Shown one piece after another: positions 5,985-22,346 of a stretch of 32,151 bases of DNA. The stretch is from IMG/VR virus record IMGVR_UViG_3300027796_000030, positions 1 through 32,151 of that record; one strand, 5' to 3'. Below the pieces are notes generated by a model, which ran no database searches, was not told where the DNA came from, and saw only the letters and a program-made list of their open reading frames with translations. Numbering within the stretch: the stretch's first letter is position 1; each line of letters starts with the position of its first letter. Source of the stretch: a virus. The position numbers and the translations under genes are program-made.

Positions 5985-6239
5985 TCACCTGTCCATGATC
6001 TTCTTGATTTCTTCGAGCTTCTCGGCCGCGTGGTTTTGCGGCTCGGCGCCGGTAACGAGGAATTCGACGGAGACATTGAGCGCCGCGGCGATCCGGACGG
6101 ATTCATCGGCACGAGGGAGGTTTTCATATCGTTTCAATGAATTATACGAGTCGTAATTCATTCCGAGTCCTTCAATGAAATCTCGGAGGTTTAGGTTCTT
6201 TGCTTTGACAAGCTCTTTTACGCGGTCGAAGAAGTCCAT
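5985..6239 (-). CDS. Cro/CI-type HTH repressor
   Basis: This is the only convincing minus-strand gene. The 84-residue product has an XRE-type helix-turn-helix: LNLRDFIEGLGMNYDSYNSL covers helices 2 and 3, followed by YENLPRADESVRIAAALNVS and FLVTG, a classic ending of this domain (choose start by conserved length). A short charged helix (KLEEIKKIMDR) follows, possibly for dimerisation. It lacks the C-terminal S24 peptidase domain of SOS-cleaved repressors, so induction would need another trigger or anti-repressor. It faces the early promoter and operator-like repeats at 6259-6340, which fits a lysogeny switch. No Shine-Dalgarno sequence precedes its start codon. Confidence 0.8.
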   Translation of the reverse strand: MDFFDRVKELVKAKNLNLRDFIEGLGMNYDSYNSLKRYENLPRADESVRIAAALNVSVEFLVTGAEPQNHAAEKLEEIKKIMDR

Positions 6240-6246
6240 GCAAAGA

Positions 6247-6275
6247 AATATACACGAAATTGGTTAAATAAACAA
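6247..6275 (-). promoter_or_regulatory. Predicted repressor promoter
   Basis: Read on the minus strand, TTGTTT (6275-6270) and TATATT (6252-6247) are separated by 17 bases. Transcription would begin at about 6240, at or next to the repressor start codon at 6239, so the transcript may be leaderless. The leftmost operator-like site (6259-6276) covers the spacer and the -35 box, which allows autoregulation. Confidence 0.5.
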
Positions 6276-6276
6276 T
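6259..6276. promoter_or_regulatory. Operator-like site 1 (ATTGGTT-N4-AAACAAT)
   Basis: One arm matches the perfect palindrome at 6323-6340 exactly and the other has one mismatch. It overlaps the predicted repressor promoter. TTGGTT starts here at 6260, exactly 32 bases before site 2. Binding by the adjacent HTH repressor is inferred. Confidence 0.6.
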
Positions 6277-6283
6277 ATTTATA

Positions 6284-6311
6284 TTGACAACTTGGTTATA
6301 CTAACTATAAT
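6284..6311 (+). promoter_or_regulatory. Strong early promoter (TTGACA-16-TATAAT)
   Basis: Both hexamers match the sigma-70 consensus perfectly: TTGACA at 6284-6289 and TATAAT at 6306-6311, with a 16-base spacer. Transcription would start near 6318 and run right into the structured leader and the early operon. Operator-like site 2 fills the spacer and site 3 lies just after the start point, so repression in the lysogen is expected. Confidence 0.85.
6291..6307. promoter_or_regulatory. Operator-like site 2 (half site TTGGTT in promoter spacer)
   Basis: TTGGTT at 6292-6297 repeats the left arm of sites 1 and 3; the right arm is degenerate. It lies between the -35 and -10 boxes of the early promoter. 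A bound repressor here would block RNA polymerase directly. Confidence 0.5.
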
Positions 6312-6322
6312 AAGTATTAGAT

Positions 6323-6340
6323 ATTGGTTGTGTAACCAAT
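6323..6340. promoter_or_regulatory. Operator-like site 3 (perfect palindrome ATTGGTT-GTGT-AACCAAT)
   Basis: This is a perfect 7-base inverted repeat around GTGT, about 5-22 bases downstream of the predicted transcription start. It is the best match of the three sites and probably the strongest repressor target. Its left arm starts 32 bases after that of site 2. Confidence 0.65.
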
Positions 6341-6349
6341 TTATAGAGA

Positions 6350-6445
6350 CGTTATGAGTGACTACTACCCAGTCATAACGGCTTTCGAGCCTAACAGGCC
6401 GGGTTGAAGCGGGGTAGTAGCGCGGAAATCCGGCCTTTTCTTTCT
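6350..6445 (+). ncRNA. Predicted pseudoknotted leader RNA of the early operon
   Basis: Four complementary pairs can be read in the 5' leader. Stem A: CGTTATGA 6350-6357 with TCATAACG 6373-6380. Stem B: CTACTACCC 6362-6370 with GGGTAGTAG 6412-6420. Stem C: GGCT 6380-6383 with AGCC 6388-6391 around a TTCG tetraloop. Stem D: AGGCCGG 6396-6402 with CCGGCCT 6430-6436, followed by a U-rich run to 6445. Stem B starts in the loop of A and crosses D, so the set implies a pseudoknot or mutually exclusive folds. The U-rich tract after stem D could make it a conditional terminator. I do not match it to a named riboswitch or ribozyme. Confidence 0.55.
6354..6407 (+). CDS. Possible 17-codon leader peptide
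   Basis: ATG at 6354 opens MSDYYPVITAFEPNRPG, ending at TGA 6405-6407, wholly inside the structured leader RNA. The Tyr-Tyr-Pro codons lie in the 5' strand of stem B. Only a weak purine stretch (AGAGAC) precedes the ATG. If translated, ribosome passage would change which stems can form, as in attenuation. It may equally be a chance frame. Confidence 0.25.
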   Translation: MSDYYPVITAFEPNRPG

Positions 6446-6458
6446 ACGGAGGTTCGAT

Positions 6459-6629
6459 ATGACGACATTCCTTGATCTGGTTCGTGCGAACGGATTCGAA
6501 ACGATAAACGAGTACCTGGATTCAATGCCGGAGCTTCCGGTTCAAAACGATATTTCCGAGGCTCGGCTTGAGAAAATCAGGCGGAGCGAGGCCATGACAG
6601 AACAATACCTGGGAGGAAAAGCATGCTGA
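6459..6629 (+). CDS. Small early protein (56 aa)
   Basis: ATG at 6459 has a strong GGAGG six bases upstream (6448-6452). The product starts MTTFLDLVRANGFETINEYL and is 56 residues, soluble and acidic with a helical C-terminal part. It is the first gene after the early promoter and the leader RNA, the usual place for a transcription or host-takeover regulator, but no family is recognised. The next gene starts 7 bases before its stop. Confidence 0.6.
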   Translation: MTTFLDLVRANGFETINEYLDSMPELPVQNDISEARLEKIRRSEAMTEQYLGGKAC

Positions 6630-6838
6630 ATCCTGAATCGTATAAAGACGGCGCGATCGACCAGATCATGCGTACCTGCGAAACGGTGAGCGCGGAAGAC
6701 ATTGAGATCATCGGCGACGTGTTATTGAACACCATAACGCAGGTCAAGGCGGATCTTATTGACGAGATTGGCGTTGATCTCGCGGCGAGCGTAAAAGATC
6801 GCGTGAACCTCACGCTTTCGAAACTGAGGAGCGCGTAG
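6623..6838 (+). CDS. Small early protein (71 aa), helical
   Basis: The 71-residue product is almost entirely predicted helix (TCETVSAEDIEIIGDVLLN and AASVKDRVNLTLSKLRSA). GGGAGG lies just upstream within the preceding gene. It overlaps that gene by 7 bases and almost touches the next. No family recognised; a small helical DNA- or protein-binding factor is possible. Confidence 0.6.
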   Translation: MLNPESYKDGAIDQIMRTCETVSAEDIEIIGDVLLNTITQVKADLIDEIGVDLAASVKDRVNLTLSKLRSA

Positions 6839-7574: not shown

Positions 7575-8618
7575 ATGGATACCACAGCATTGACTATCGT
7601 GAATAACGCAAAGGCAAAGGGCGCCCTGATTTATGTTGACATGAACAGCCTCAATCAAATGACTGAGCTGTATCGTGCAGAAGCCACGGAAACTGTTTTT
7701 GACAAGAAGCAGTTTCATTCAATGAAGGGCGGCAAGTTTCAGCCTGACAAAGCTACAACCGATAAAATCGGTGAGCTATCTGGAATTACCTTCATTCCTT
7801 CTGCAAGCTCTGAGAAACTGGTTCATCGGAAAGATAGTATTTGCGGCGAGCGCGATTCATGGATCGTAACCGCGCAGGGGAAAAAACTCTGTTCAGATGG
7901 GAACTGGCAGGAATCAAACATCGAAGCCTATGAGTTTGATCCTTGTGTCCGTGCCATGGAAGAACTCGGATTATCTGAAGTGACCGAAACGAATAAACCG
8001 GCATATAACCGCAAGGTAATCGAATTCACGAAAGTAGCTCTCGCTCGTGCAAAAACCGGCGCACGTCTTCGGGTGATTCGCGCTCTCGCCGGTCTTCCGA
8101 GTTCGTTCGATGCAGATGATATCAAAAAACCGATGGTTTTCTCCCGCGTCGTCATGAACACTGCTTTCGTCCTTTCAACTCCTGAAGGCCGTACTATGGC
8201 GACCGCGAAGGCCCTTGACATGGACGTTTCGAGCCTTCTTTTCGGAAACAAGAAACCCGATCCCGCTCAGGCGATCGCCGCTTCGGCCGAAAAGACTCCC
8301 TCCGAAGCCGATATGGGAAACCTTCGGAGTGCGAACGAACCGGAAACAGAGCCCGAACCCGCAGCCGATACCGTGTCTCTCGCAGATCAGGCGAACCCGG
8401 GCGAAGGATCTTCCGAGGAGTTCAAGCAGTTAACCATCGAACTCGAGGAAATGGTTGTGAGCTTTAAGGAAATGCTCAACGTCAACCTTCCTTCTGGCAT
8501 GAACCCTTTTACCCTGGCACAGGCAGAACTCGACGACTTCACCGCGACCGTCGAAACGAGAAAATCGATGATTAAACGCACAACTGATTTCCTAAAGGCC
8601 AGAAAGGTGGCGGTATGA
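7575..8618 (+). CDS. Candidate phage recombination (single-strand annealing-like) protein
   Basis: AAGGAG at 7560-7565 serves ATG 7575 with nine bases of spacing; ATG 7569 in the same frame is the alternative. The product is about 347 residues. Features seen include a conserved-looking middle region (ITFIPSASSEKLVHRKDS, then KVALARAKTGARLRVIRALA and GLPSSF) and an acidic, low-complexity linker at about 240-280. The motif of a helix with repeated Ala, Arg and 'R-IRALAGLP' resembles the helical region of RecT/Erf-like annealing proteins, where similar residues bind ssDNA. Its place directly before the SbcDC fusion and tandem SSBs strengthens this view. I regard it as a recombination protein with moderate doubt; it could be an unrelated DNA-binding protein. 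Confidence 0.45.
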   Translation: MDTTALTIVNNAKAKGALIYVDMNSLNQMTELYRAEATETVFDKKQFHSMKGGKFQPDKATTDKIGELSGITFIPSASSEKLVHRKDSICGERDSWIVTAQGKKLCSDGNWQESNIEAYEFDPCVRAMEELGLSEVTETNKPAYNRKVIEFTKVALARAKTGARLRVIRALAGLPSSFDADDIKKPMVFSRVVMNTAFVLSTPEGRTMATAKALDMDVSSLLFGNKKPDPAQAIAASAEKTPSEADMGNLRSANEPETEPEPAADTVSLADQANPGEGSSEEFKQLTIELEEMVVSFKEMLNVNLPSGMNPFTLAQAELDDFTATVETRKSMIKRTTDFLKARKVAV

Positions 8619-11600
8619 AAATAATTTGTTTATCAGACATTCACGCTTGCAAGGAACACGAAGCGGAGGTTATGACTTCCCTTGGCGAGGTCAAAGAAGC
8701 GCGCAGAATACACGGAGCCGATATCGTCGCCTTAGCGGGCGACTGGTGGGACGCGACTGTCCAGAACACCGCGCAGGGCGGTCTCGATCGCTTTCTCGGT
8801 GAGCTTCAGGCGATCGCGAACGAATGCCCGGTCGTCATGGTCGAAGGAACCCCGAGTCACGATGTCGACGGTTCGCTCGACGTCATCAAGCGACTCGATA
8901 CGGAATACGGTATCACGATTCTTGAGCCGGGAAGGCCCTATTTCCTTGACGGACACAAAGTCAGAGAAAAGGAATCGATGGCGGGCGCGCATGGATCTCT
9001 TCTCATCCTCGGAATCCCCGAGCCGCGCAAGAAATACCTTCTCGCTAACGGGACGGCCGGAAAGGACGCGACCGAGGAGGCCGTGAGGAACGCGATGCAC
9101 ATGCTTTGCTTCCAGCTCGCCGCGATTCGGAAGCAGTACGCCGATCTTCCGTGCCTCGTCGTCTACCATGGCGACGTCGCGGGAACGACGCTCCAGAACG
9201 ACCAGACCGTCGAGCGCGGGACGGGAATCGCGATTACGATCGACGATCTCGCATCGATCGGTGCCGATTTCTATCATCTAGGCCACATTCACAAGCCGCA
9301 GCAGGTCGGTACGCTTCCGGCCTATTACCCGGGGTCAGTCTACGCGAAGAACTTCGGGGAGACGCACAAGCCGGGGTGCAATCTGGTTGAGATTGGAATG
9401 AAAGAGGAGTTCGATTTCTTTCATGAAAGTCAGTTTGGATCCAAGGTCACCCGAATCGACTTCTCGCATCCTCAAAACCTGAAGGTCAATATCGATTTCA
9501 AGTTGTGGAATGCAGAATTCCATGATATCTCGGGTCGCCGCGTCTGGGCAGAAATTTCCTGCAAAAAGGAAGAACAGGCACTCGTTGATGTCGACAAGGT
9601 GCTTACGAGTCTTTTGACAGCGGGCGCCGTACTAGGCTCTCGCGTAACCCTCGCCGTAGATGCCGTAGAGACCGTCCGTGCTGCCGAGATATCGGGAACA
9701 TCGATCACGCCCACGAAGAAATTCGAGATCTGGGCCGATCAATCCGCGATCCCCGTGACCGACACGCTCCGCACGAAGATCAAAGACCTCGAGAACGCTT
9801 CCGAACGCTCAGGCGCGACAATCTCCGGAGAATGGGAACTCGTTTCCGTCCGGCTTCGCGGGGCGACCGGGATCTATAAAGGGATCCGCAAAGACGAGAT
9901 CTATGTCAACTTCGACGAGTTCGATGACGGAATTATCGCGCTTGGCGGCCGTAACGGGAAGGGGAAAACAACCTTCATCGAGAATTGCCACGCATACGGG
10001 CAACTTCTCACCCGTAAAGGAACCCTCAAGGACCACTTCCGGCTCAAGGATTCATTCCGCGAGGTCATCTATCGCGACGTTTCGACCGGAGCCGAGAAGC
10101 GCTTCTTCATCCAGATCGACGGATTCACGAAGTCTGGAGGCTCGAAATACTTTATCTTCGACCGTGCCGCGGGCGAGACCGAATGGATCCCGATGCCCGG
10201 GATTGATGGAAACCTCGACCCGTACAAGGAAGCCGTCCAGGCGATCTTTGGGCCGCTAGAGCTCTACCTTCGGACCGCGTTCATCACGCAGAGGCCGAAC
10301 AAGGACGCGCCCGACCTCACGGAAGCGACGAAAACCGAGAAGAAGATGCTCTTCGCGAACCTCGCGGGGATCGACTACCTCCAGAAATTCGCAGATACCG
10401 CGAAGGAACGCGCCGACAATACGGCCGCGGAGAGCCATGACGCCGAGATCAAGATCGGCATGCTCGAGACGGCTGTATCGGGCAAGACGGAAATAAACAA
10501 CGAGATTGCGTTGCTCCAATCCGACAAGGCAACCAACGAAATTCTTCTCAAGGAAACGATGGAGAAGGGCTCCGCGGCCAAGAACCGCGTGGAAGGGCTC
10601 CAGATCGCGGCAAATGCCGAACGCGCCCGTTCTCAGCGCGCGGCCGACGCGGAACTTTCCCTGGGTAGAATCCGGCAGGAACTCGCCGAGATCAACCAGT
10701 CGATTACGAGCCTTGCGGACCTTTCGGTGCGCCGGCCCGAGATCGAGAAGGAAATCGCCCGGTACGAAGCCATCAGGGCAACGATTGAGACTGAAACTGA
10801 GAAACTCCGCGAGGTTGAGAAGCGGGATCAGGTCAAAACGAACGATTACCACGCTCAGATGGATAACTTCAACGCGAAGAAGCGGAATGCCGAACAGGCA
10901 ATCAATCAGCAGAAGATCGCGCTTCAGAAGGCGCAGTCCGATGCGGACGCTATTGCTCGTGAAATCCGGTTTGCCGAGTCCGCAGCGCCCGAGATCGAGG
11001 AAACCTGTCCGACATGCAAGCAGCACCTTCCGGCCGATACGGTCGCTGAGCTCACCAAAAAGCGTGAAGAGGCCCTTAAACGCATCGACGAGATGCGCGA
11101 CACGCTCGCGGGTCAGAATGCCGCAATTGCCTCAACAGCGGCCCGCCTCGATGAGCTCCAAGCGGAATTCGCGGGAATCATCTACGAAGAACCGCAGAAA
11201 CCGACGCCAGAACCCTTCGACGGCTCGATGCTCTTGAACGCGAGGGCTCAGGCCGCCGCAATCCGGATCGATGACCTCCGCGCGAACCTCACACGAGCGG
11301 CCGAAGCTTCGGCGAGAATCGAAGGCTACAAGGCGCAGATCATCGAAAAGAACCGCCAGATCGTCGAAAAACAGGGCGAGTTCGATGAACTTGTCCGCAA
11401 TGCGGACCCGGACGCGCTTACCGATCTCGAACTTGCAAAAACCGAGCTTAACGAGCTGATTGAGAAACACCGGCAGCTCACGGCGGACCTCGCATCGAGC
11501 CAAGCCTCTCTCGACGCGCAGAAGAAACGCCTTGCAGAGATCGAAGTATCAGAAACCGAGCTCAAAACGCTCAGGGAATCGGTCAGAACCGCGAAGACGG

Positions 11601-12151
11601 AATTCGCCGAGTGGGATCTCCTTCGCCGAGCGTTTGGACCGGACGGAATCCAGGCCCTCGAGTTCGACGCCCTAGCGCCCGGGATTGCGCAGGTCGCGAA
11701 CGATATTCTTACGGCTTCCTTCGGCGATCGCTTCAGGATCGAATTCCAGACAACGCGCATGGCCGGTACCGGAAAAAACACGAAGCAGGTTGAGGATTTC
11801 CTGATCTACGTCATCGATACGCTCGACGGGGAGGCAACGCTCCTCGAGAACAAGTCAGGCGGCGAGGCGGTTTGGATCAAGCGGGCGATTTACTCCGCGT
11901 TCGCGATCATTCGATCCCGGAATACAGGCTTTCGCTTCCTGACGTCATTCCAGGACGAGGCGGACGGCGCCCTCGACTCGGAATCGAAGGTCGCGTACTG
12001 CGCGATGCTCTCGGCCGAGCATGATACCGCGAAGCTCAAGCACACGATCATCATCACGCACTCGGAAGAGGTTAAGGCCATGATCGACCAGAAGATCGAC
12101 ATGGAGTCGTTCGTGGAGGAAAAGGTGGAAGACGGGGAGGCAGTGGCATGA
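8615..12151 (+). CDS. sbcDC: Single-chain SbcD-SbcC (Mre11-Rad50) nuclease-ATPase fusion
   Basis: One 1178-residue frame joins both subunits. The N-terminal Mre11/SbcD phosphoesterase has the metal-binding motifs SDIHA (D8, H10), GDWWD (42-46), TPSHD (H82), YHGD (H185) and HLGHIH (H221, H224, H226). The Rad50/SbcC ATPase follows: Walker A GGRNGKGKTT at 444-453, a long coiled coil with a CPTC zinc hook at 798-801, signature SGGE at 1081-1084, Walker B ending D1114-E1115, and an H-loop His at 1149. Normally two proteins form this complex, which trims DNA ends and opens hairpins. Phage T4 gp47/gp46 act in recombination-dependent replication. The last 4 bases overlap the RtcB gene. The fusion is seen directly; its function is inferred from the family. 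Confidence 0.93.
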   Translation: MKIICLSDIHACKEHEAEVMTSLGEVKEARRIHGADIVALAGDWWDATVQNTAQGGLDRFLGELQAIANECPVVMVEGTPSHDVDGSLDVIKRLDTEYGITILEPGRPYFLDGHKVREKESMAGAHGSLLILGIPEPRKKYLLANGTAGKDATEEAVRNAMHMLCFQLAAIRKQYADLPCLVVYHGDVAGTTLQNDQTVERGTGIAITIDDLASIGADFYHLGHIHKPQQVGTLPAYYPGSVYAKNFGETHKPGCNLVEIGMKEEFDFFHESQFGSKVTRIDFSHPQNLKVNIDFKLWNAEFHDISGRRVWAEISCKKEEQALVDVDKVLTSLLTAGAVLGSRVTLAVDAVETVRAAEISGTSITPTKKFEIWADQSAIPVTDTLRTKIKDLENASERSGATISGEWELVSVRLRGATGIYKGIRKDEIYVNFDEFDDGIIALGGRNGKGKTTFIENCHAYGQLLTRKGTLKDHFRLKDSFREVIYRDVSTGAEKRFFIQIDGFTKSGGSKYFIFDRAAGETEWIPMPGIDGNLDPYKEAVQAIFGPLELYLRTAFITQRPNKDAPDLTEATKTEKKMLFANLAGIDYLQKFADTAKERADNTAAESHDAEIKIGMLETAVSGKTEINNEIALLQSDKATNEILLKETMEKGSAAKNRVEGLQIAANAERARSQRAADAELSLGRIRQELAEINQSITSLADLSVRRPEIEKEIARYEAIRATIETETEKLREVEKRDQVKTNDYHAQMDNFNAKKRNAEQAINQQKIALQKAQSDADAIAREIRFAESAAPEIEETCPTCKQHLPADTVAELTKKREEALKRIDEMRDTLAGQNAAIASTAARLDELQAEFAGIIYEEPQKPTPEPFDGSMLLNARAQAAAIRIDDLRANLTRAAEASARIEGYKAQIIEKNRQIVEKQGEFDELVRNADPDALTDLELAKTELNELIEKHRQLTADLASSQASLDAQKKRLAEIEVSETELKTLRESVRTAKTEFAEWDLLRRAFGPDGIQALEFDALAPGIAQVANDILTASFGDRFRIEFQTTRMAGTGKNTKQVEDFLIYVIDTLDGEATLLENKSGGEAVWIKRAIYSAFAIIRSRNTGFRFLTSFQDEADGALDSESKVAYCAMLSAEHDTAKLKHTIIITHSEEVKAMIDQKIDMESFVEEKVEDGEAVA

Positions 12152-13314
12152 AAATTCTCGACGGGAAATACAATTTCGCAAAGGTCATGATCGACGAGAT
12201 CGACGACAATACGCAGGCTCAGATTCAGGGCTTTCTCAATCATCCGGCTTTCGGAAACAAGAAGAAGATTGCCATCATGCCCGACTGCCACGCGGGAAGC
12301 GGGTCTTGTATCGGTTTCACCATGCGTTTCAACGAAATCCCCGATGCTGTCATGCCTCAGATCGTTGGCGTCGATATCGGCTGCGGAATGCTTGCCGCTT
12401 GTTTCGGGAATATCGAGCTTGATCCCGTAAAACTCGATGCATTCATCAAGGAAAATATCCCGGCTGGCCGTTGCATCAACGATAAGCCTTTCGAGTTCAT
12501 CGAAGAATTTCGGGATAAAGTTGAGACGGTTTCGAGCCGTATTGGTGCTGGGTATGCTCAGGTTTCTCGGGCAATCGGTTCGCTTGGCGGCGGGAACCAC
12601 TTCATCGAGGCGGATCATGATTCACAAGGCCGCGTATGGATCGTTATTCATTCGGGATCGCGTAATTTCGGAAAGCGGATTGCAGATTTTTATCAGAAAA
12701 ACGCGCGAAACCTTATGGATGCGTTCTATATCGACTTTGAGAAGGATATGGAATTCATCCCATCGGGGCAGCCCACCGCACTCGAATACGTCAATGCCAT
12801 GAAGATCGCCCAGGAGTATGCGAGGATCAACCGCTATGAGATGTTGCACCGGATCGGCCGTTTCATCATCGAGGGTGTACCTAGCGCGGGTATGACCGAG
12901 GTCGTCGAGTCGGTTCACAACTATATCGACTTCAAGGATCACACGATCCGCAAAGGGGCGATTAGCGCTCATGAAGGTGAAATCTGCATTATACCGTTCA
13001 ATTCCGCCGACGGTTCCGCGCTCTGCAAAGGGAAGGGAAATAAAGAGTGGAACGAATCTGCTCCGCACGGAGCCGGTCGCCTTATGAGTCGAAGCAAGGC
13101 GTTTGAGAATCTTGACTACAAAGAGTATCAGGCGCGGCTTGCAGAAAAAGGAGTGTATTCTTCGACAGCAAACAGCTCGACGCTCGACGAGGCGCCAATG
13201 GCATACAAGCCGATGGAAACAATCCTTTCAGCAATCGAGCCGACCGTTGAAATCGTCGACATGCTCAAGCCGTTCTACAACTTCAAGGCCGCTGAAGGGC
13301 GAGGCAGAAAATGA
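12148..13314 (+). CDS. rtcB: RtcB-type RNA ligase
   Basis: The 388-residue product has the hallmark motifs of RtcB: PDCHAGSGSCIGF, GVDIGCGM with the metal-binding Cys, GGGNHFIE, HSGSRNFG, the long RKGAISAHEGEICIIPFN region, and HGAGRLMSRSKA, whose His is the one that becomes guanylylated. RtcB joins RNA ends with 2',3'-cyclic phosphate to 5'-OH ends using GTP and Mn2+, and repairs RNAs cut by toxins or tRNA nucleases. It overlaps the SbcDC fusion by ATGA, so the two are probably co-translated. No archease gene is visible. In a phage, the likely role is repair of tRNAs cleaved by host defence nucleases. Confidence 0.92.
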   Translation: MKILDGKYNFAKVMIDEIDDNTQAQIQGFLNHPAFGNKKKIAIMPDCHAGSGSCIGFTMRFNEIPDAVMPQIVGVDIGCGMLAACFGNIELDPVKLDAFIKENIPAGRCINDKPFEFIEEFRDKVETVSSRIGAGYAQVSRAIGSLGGGNHFIEADHDSQGRVWIVIHSGSRNFGKRIADFYQKNARNLMDAFYIDFEKDMEFIPSGQPTALEYVNAMKIAQEYARINRYEMLHRIGRFIIEGVPSAGMTEVVESVHNYIDFKDHTIRKGAISAHEGEICIIPFNSADGSALCKGKGNKEWNESAPHGAGRLMSRSKAFENLDYKEYQARLAEKGVYSSTANSSTLDEAPMAYKPMETILSAIEPTVEIVDMLKPFYNFKAAEGRGRK

Positions 13315-21887: not shown

Positions 21888-22156
21888 TGTTTACGATCAC
21901 TGGTTCGATCAAGAATAAAACCTGCTCGATTACCTACGACGAAGGGAAGCTCAGCGGCGACGAAACAGCCGTTTCCATTGCGCGTGAAGAAGCAAAGAAA
22001 GATCACGGTCCGGTAGGACTTCACCCTGAAGTCATCGAATCCGATTATTTATCCCAAGAGATCCCGGCATACGCGCTCATCTATTCGTTTGTCTTCGATT
22101 CGGTCGAATCCGAGGAGAACGATTGGGAACCGGCGCCGGATGATGCCGTGTTCTAA
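21887..22156 (+). CDS. Small acidic protein, candidate immunity or partner of MuF peptidase
   Basis: The gene starts on the TGA of the MuF-metallopeptidase gene and ends just before a terminator. The 89-residue product begins MFTITGSIKNKTCSITYDEG, continues with a helix (ETAVSIAREEAKKDHGPV), and ends acidic (VESEENDWEPAPDDAVF). Small size, acidity and strict coupling to a putative toxin domain are the usual signs of an immunity protein. It could also be a head-assembly partner. Nothing in the sequence proves inhibition. Confidence 0.55.
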   Translation: MFTITGSIKNKTCSITYDEGKLSGDETAVSIAREEAKKDHGPVGLHPEVIESDYLSQEIPAYALIYSFVFDSVESEENDWEPAPDDAVF

Positions 22157-22173
22157 AAATACCATGCTTATTG

Positions 22174-22204
22174 AACCAAGGCGCTCCTCGTGAGCGCCTT
22201 GGTT
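22174..22204. terminator. Strong hairpin terminator after the MuF pair
   Basis: A 13-base stem (22174-22186 with 22192-22204) has a five-base loop. The following ATTGTT is only weakly U-rich on the + strand, so termination may be partial or help transcript stability. It closes the packaging and portal gene group and lies just before the new promoter of the capsid genes. Confidence 0.75.
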
Positions 22205-22346
22205 ATTGTTCCAGAAAAAAAGTTAAAAATATTTTATGCAAAATCTATCGTACTCTATATAGTCTCATTGATTCATAGTATCCAATACAGCCTAATACGA
22301 TATAACACGTTTTAATTTTCACGAATACCACCAATGAAAATCGCGC
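22205..22346. other. AT-rich intergenic spacer between head gene groups
   Basis: No open frame or RNA structure worth naming is seen in this AT-rich stretch between the terminator and the promoter. Several TATA-like strings occur (for example CTATATAG near 22254), so further promoters or binding sites are possible, but none has a good partner box that I can support. Confidence 0.4.

Follow-up and report, generated by a model that had tools for sequence, protein, structure and literature searches.

Structured RNAs that lie directly behind the early promoters of phage HK022, the put RNAs, promote read-through by binding polymerase; to our knowledge, these elements have no terminator of their own and no kissing pair. 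Transcription attenuators of the pT181 plasmid type combine a leader terminator with an antiterminator that captures the 5′ portion of the terminator stem, under the control of kissing hairpins (PMC4878617). In the CI RNA immunity of satellite phage P4, the early genes are subject to premature termination and a processed antisense RNA pairs with seqA and seqC (PMC4825925). Finally, the GOLLD and ROOL RNAs of phages are multimeric molecules of hundreds of bases, often encoded near tRNA genes, that contain covarying kissing loops (PMC12286853).

Here we analyze a leader RNA in front of the early operon of a phage represented by a stretch of viral DNA of 32,151 nucleotides (hereafter the window), which shares features with each of these systems. 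The nearest in function are the pT181-type attenuators (PMC4878617) and the P4 CI RNA (PMC4825925). As in pT181, a terminator-like hairpin (hairpin D) with a U-tract, a predicted terminator, precedes the controlled gene in all seven members of the family. An antiterminator competing for the 5′ strand of this hairpin may exist: such pairing is predicted in the six members folded, though only modestly above shuffled sequences. However, the pT181 kiss involves the leader and a separate countertranscribed RNA, whereas here both loops belong to one leader and one of them sits in the terminator hairpin itself; a consensus scan of window positions 6150–6700 found no promoter-like site on the opposite strand facing the leader, and the countertranscribed RNA that defines the pT181 systems was not found. 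The resemblance to P4 lies in complementary segments within the early leader (here, helix B), but in our case these are the apical loops of two hairpins, one of them followed by a U-tract, and the element is located beside a protein repressor. The put RNAs have the same position directly behind an early promoter but lack the terminator-like hairpin and the kissing pair, and GOLLD and ROOL, despite their covarying kissing loops, are not terminator leaders and find no counterpart here in the form of an Rfam match for the leader. No leader of this layout is named in the open-access text that we searched.

Genomic context of the leader

The window is a phage genome, with genes for a helicase, a primase, a cytosine methylase, an SbcD-SbcC-like fusion, RtcB, SSB, terminase, portal, and head and tail proteins; the closest named relative of the SbcC-like protein comes from Leptospira phage LE1. 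The apparent SbcD-SbcC fusion is a protein of 1178 aa (8615–12151) with an N-terminal, SbcD-like metallophosphatase and a C-terminal SMC/SbcC-like part, and its gene is adjoined by that of a phage-encoded RtcB RNA ligase (12148–13314).

The early promoter, TTGACA-16-TATAAT (6284–6311, plus strand), matches the sigma-70 consensus at 12/12 positions and is surrounded by palindromic TTGGTTA/TAACCAA repeats; the palindrome ATTGGTTGTGTAACCAAT (6325–6342, plus strand), with TTGGTTA-like copies upstream, reads as the probable operator. The divergent gene on the minus strand (5985–6239) codes for an 84-aa HTH repressor-like protein, probably the early repressor: it matches a PHROG of transcriptional regulators (6e-12) and Pfam HTH_3 (E 2e-4, just under the cut-off), and its orthologues in the related contigs L002, L019, and L020 match Phage_CI_repr. 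On the other side, hairpin D is followed by TTTTCTTTCT, a Shine-Dalgarno sequence (CGGAGG, 6447–6452, plus strand), and the ATG of the first early gene (6459–6629, plus strand), which encodes 56 aa and belongs to no known family according to our searches. The element occupies the place that an earlier note, made from the letters of the window, had assigned to it: it is a structured leader, preceded by a promoter that is probably under repressor control and followed by the first early gene. The interval separating the predicted terminator from the first start codon (6446–6459) is too short to hold a promoter, so that early transcription must pass hairpin D.

Architecture of the leader RNA

The leader (6350–6446, plus strand throughout) consists of hairpin A, a small hairpin C, hairpin D, and a U-rich tract, the folded RNA amounting to about 90 bases. 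Hairpin A (6350–6380) has an 8-bp stem (6350–6357/6373–6380) and displays CTACTACCC (6362–6370) in its loop. Hairpin C (6380–6391; GGCT-TTCG-AGCC, 4 bp) uses as its first G the last base of hairpin A and, its loop being closed by U-A, is not the special cUUCGg tetraloop. Hairpin D (6396–6436) comprises a GC-rich stem of 10 bp including one G-U (6396–6405/6427–6436), a purine-rich internal loop, a 3-bp inner stem GCG/CGC (6409–6411/6421–6423), and the apical loop GGGTAGTAG (6412–6420), and is directly followed by the U-rich tract TTTTCTTTCTA (6436–6446). Because the 9-nt loops of A and D are exact complements, the pairing between them, 9 perfect Watson-Crick base pairs (6362–6370/6412–6420), constitutes a kissing-loop helix, B. 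All four pairings proposed in the earlier note are present; the 7-bp stem that it gave for D is the core of the longer one, and helix B, there said to cross A and D, is a real pairing that is more exactly described as joining their apical loops in a kissing-loop complex.

The note had matched the element to no named motif, and scanning the leaders of the window, L019, L020, L025, and L029 against the Rfam 15 covariance models likewise gave no credible match. None of the self-cleaving ribozyme classes was matched in these five leaders, which leaves the ribozyme that the note had entertained without any support.

Conservation and covariation in related phages

The family comprises seven members (the window, L002, L019, L020, L025, L029, and L229), all of them metagenomic or uncharacterised viral contigs from one group of related, mostly uncultured phages. 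The homologues were reached via neighbouring phage genes and not via the leader sequence: a 365-aa ORF led to L002, the SbcC-like protein to L019, L020, L025, and L029, and the helicase to L229. Pairwise identity among the first six leaders is 31–68%. The order A, C, D, U-tract is common to all seven, with a small hairpin drawable between A and D in most (its alignment is uncertain in L029, L025, and L229), and the U-rich run noticed in the window follows D in 7/7 members. Moreover, the element is in every case located downstream of a promoter and directly before an early ORF, within a common gene order of the early operon. Promoter scores are 10–12/12 in six members; those of L029 (15-base spacer) and L229 (8/12) are weak and the other five are clear. 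A divergent HTH gene was identified by family in the window, L002, L019, L020, and L229; it was not identified with certainty in L025, and the divergent product of L029 has no Pfam match. In L229 this gene is of another HTH type, indicating that the leader was kept while the putative repressor was exchanged.

The decisive evidence for the structure is covariation, which the earlier note had named in advance as the test for A, B, and D. MAFFT misaligned the variable strands of B; hence, a structural alignment was made by hand and pairs were counted by script. Such an alignment is built around the structure and favours it, but the exact complementarity of differing loops cannot arise from alignment. 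Over the seven members, 49/49 cells of B are paired with two-sided changes in 6/7 pairs, as are 56/56 cells of D (10/10 pairs) and 56/60 cells of A (8/9 pairs); in the inner stem of D, where GCG/CGC is nearly constant, 21/21 cells are paired and 2/3 pairs show two-sided changes. The loop pairs change in concert, yielding six distinct B helices: CTACTACC/GGTAGTAG in the window and L002, CTTCCACC/GGTGGAAG in L019, CTGTCACC/GGTGACAG in L020, GTTAGGG/CCCTAAC in L025, CTGGAAG/CTTCCAG in L229, and, in L029, GGTGGAAG/CTTCCACC, with the strands swapped relative to L019. When the partner strand is slid by 1–3 columns, pairing of B falls to 11–24/42, and when the 3′ strands were permuted among the five distinct helices then known, 35/35 was reached only in the true order, the next best being 32. 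Since pairing is kept while its letters change, the element qualifies as a real, undescribed RNA switch candidate, and its structure is well supported.

The density of perfect pairing, which the earlier note held to be rare in random sequence, was assessed with a descriptor that asks for two hairpins, loop complementarity over at least 7 nt, and a U-tract, and that was written after the first six members had been seen. The score of the window was reached by 0/20,000 dinucleotide shuffles of the leader, and a single site scored at least 80 among 4.56 million strand-bases of phage DNA from unrelated loci, the family members scoring 80–90. The descriptor predicted the leader of L229 in newly fetched DNA, where it sits in the expected place, a single prospective success. 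It found no match in more distant relatives (L149, L159, L231 onward), nor was a leader found in L144–L146 and L148, the contigs of which are cut upstream of the helicase; the rest of the two larger records among them was likewise without a match. An exact-pattern scan of genomes returned four stretches, none with the architecture, and of the 111 stretches returned by a looser scan of viral contigs only the known members combined long stems with complementarity at the centre bases. Searching the phage collection by DNA similarity, whether with the leaders or with the second-class RNA described below, produced only chance matches or nothing. Elsewhere in the window, a weak descriptor match at 22111–22220 corresponds to a strong GC-rich intergenic hairpin (AACCAAGGCGC/GCGCCTTGGTT) that follows the head morphogenesis genes and precedes a T-rich stretch; this is probably an ordinary terminator.

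Proposed conditional termination and its alternatives

Hairpin D and the U-tract after it are built like an intrinsic terminator and, as a predicted terminator, are kept in all seven members, so that of the roles in early transcription suggested in the earlier note, control by termination is the best reading. D escapes a simple terminator scan, which does not accept a loop region of this length. We favour, with moderate confidence, the interpretation of the element as the 5′ leader of the early transcript that acts as a conditional intrinsic terminator, i.e., a transcription attenuator. Transcription would start at about 6318, and hairpin A would be made first, followed by C and then by D with the U-tract. 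In the stop fold, A, C, and D would coexist and the 7–9 nt loops of A and D would kiss, with polymerase released near 6445 and an RNA of about 125 nt as the product. In the go fold, the B sequences would pair as an ordinary long hairpin before the 3′ strand of D is made, and the segment enclosed by B would pair with the 5′ strand of D, so that no terminator would form and the early operon would be transcribed. Helix B would pair in both folds and would accordingly be the hinge of the switch, with the kiss locking the stop fold of a two-state attenuator.

Folding predictions, made with a nested model without kissing energies, are compatible with this scheme. When the 3′ strand of D is withheld, B is nested and the 5′ strand of D is paired upstream with a mean probability of 0.39–0.98 in the first six members; this upstream pairing exceeds the mean of linker shuffles in 6/6 members, the fraction of shuffles that reach the observed value being 0.00–0.34, and the signal is weaker against shuffles of the D strand (0.08–0.59 in the six members). 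The positions of the alternative helix are not homologous in all members and the signal is modest. At full length, the terminator fold (A, C, D) wins in 5/6, L025 being the exception. We infer that D may terminate in vivo and that the go fold may be populated; the regulatory direction of the switch is likewise our surmise, and the trigger could be the speed of transcription, a protein of the phage or of the host, or a further copy of the leader RNA. Elsewhere in the records examined, the loop words are no more frequent than chance would give, and hence no second phage target is apparent.

Foremost among the rivals, though unlikely in our view, is a self-antisense immunity RNA. If transcripts end at D, the RNA of about 125 nt so released may be a free small RNA, which the earlier note also considered; stable and with both loops displayed, this RNA could pair in trans with nascent leaders and force their termination, either in lysogens or in the late phase of infection, much as the P4 CI RNA acts. 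The loops would then set specificity, which would explain their change in concert between related phages, and the element does belong to the immunity region, with the repressor gene as its neighbour; furthermore, the existence of six B helices among seven members, including the L019-L029 strand swap, against a nearly constant inner GCG/CGC, is in line with such a function. However, perfect intramolecular complementarity favours cis pairing, drift with cis pairing kept yields the same pattern, and no processed RNA is known. It seems improbable to us that the leader, as the bearer of antisense loop and target alike, stops its own transcription and thereby frees the antisense, and that its loops diversify as an RNA immunity type alongside the protein repressor.

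Also doubtful is the idea that the kiss forms part of a site recognised by a protein (of phage or host), by a ligand, or, as in HK022 put, by polymerase itself, with binding leading to termination or antitermination. The position just behind the early promoter would suit such a site, as would the recurrence of a purine-rich internal loop (GAA/GAA-like) and of GCG/CGC in hairpin D, but few of the unpaired bases are invariant, the stems and B vary freely, and no Rfam aptamer matches.

The remaining readings rank low, together with the ribozyme. Attenuation by a leader peptide, in which the position of a ribosome on the small ORF MSDYYPVITAFEPNRPG (6354–6407, overlapping hairpins A to D) sets the fold, is very unlikely: small ORFs with an ATG start coincide in part with the leader in the window, L002, L020, L025, and L029, but start, stop, and peptide are not conserved, no clear Shine-Dalgarno sequence is seen, L019 has no ATG-led ORF there, and that of L229 has only nine codons inside hairpin A. 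We likewise give little credence to a constitutive leaky terminator, for instance one that stops transcription from upstream genes, with the kiss merely stabilising the hairpin, because this reading, while consistent with the retention of D and its U-tract and with upstream genes on the same strand, needs neither a covarying kiss with a separate hairpin nor a fixed place behind the early promoter.

A second class of kissing-loop RNA

A pattern scan with CTACTACC...GGTAGTAGCGC also matched an intergenic RNA of another phage group. This second class comprises 14 loci (L014:960–1110 on the minus strand, L003, L005, L008–L013, and L205–L209) with about 130 nt conserved, in which a 12-bp hairpin carries CTACTACC in its loop and GGTAGTAG lies downstream between GC and CGC. 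A rescan with the stem only recovered the variants ATACTACC/GGTAGTAT (L205, L206) and CTACAACC/GGTTGTAG (L207–L209); as these loop variants have matching partners, the second-class kiss covaries too. The RNA has no U-tract, is located, as far as seen, outside early leaders, and gave no match in an Rfam scan; in L014, a long ORF that we take to be portal-like lies nearby. Rfam abiF RNA matches were noted in the same records (L003:7273–7308, L005:3831–3866, L008:9282–9318, L012:11819–11855), within about 600 bases of the second-class RNA in L005, L008, and L012. This class and the leader family may share an origin or may have converged. Separately, downstream of the SbcC gene in a distant relative (L028:10960–11080), a possible kissing pair GTCCGAG/CTCGGAC is followed by a T-rich run; this GC-rich pair may be due to chance.

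Implications

The present analysis delineates a family of structured RNAs that Rfam does not contain and that is placed at the decision point of temperate-type phages. We found no described attenuator in which the apical loop of the terminator itself kisses a hairpin further upstream in the same leader. The concerted change of the loops, in six versions among seven phages, bears on control in cis versus in trans and on the prospect of RNA-based immunity beyond P4, and is testable by reporter. Should the immunity reading prove true, the loop pair of like kind that occurs in the second phage group, which is unrelated, would point to a wider class of phage kissing-loop RNA.
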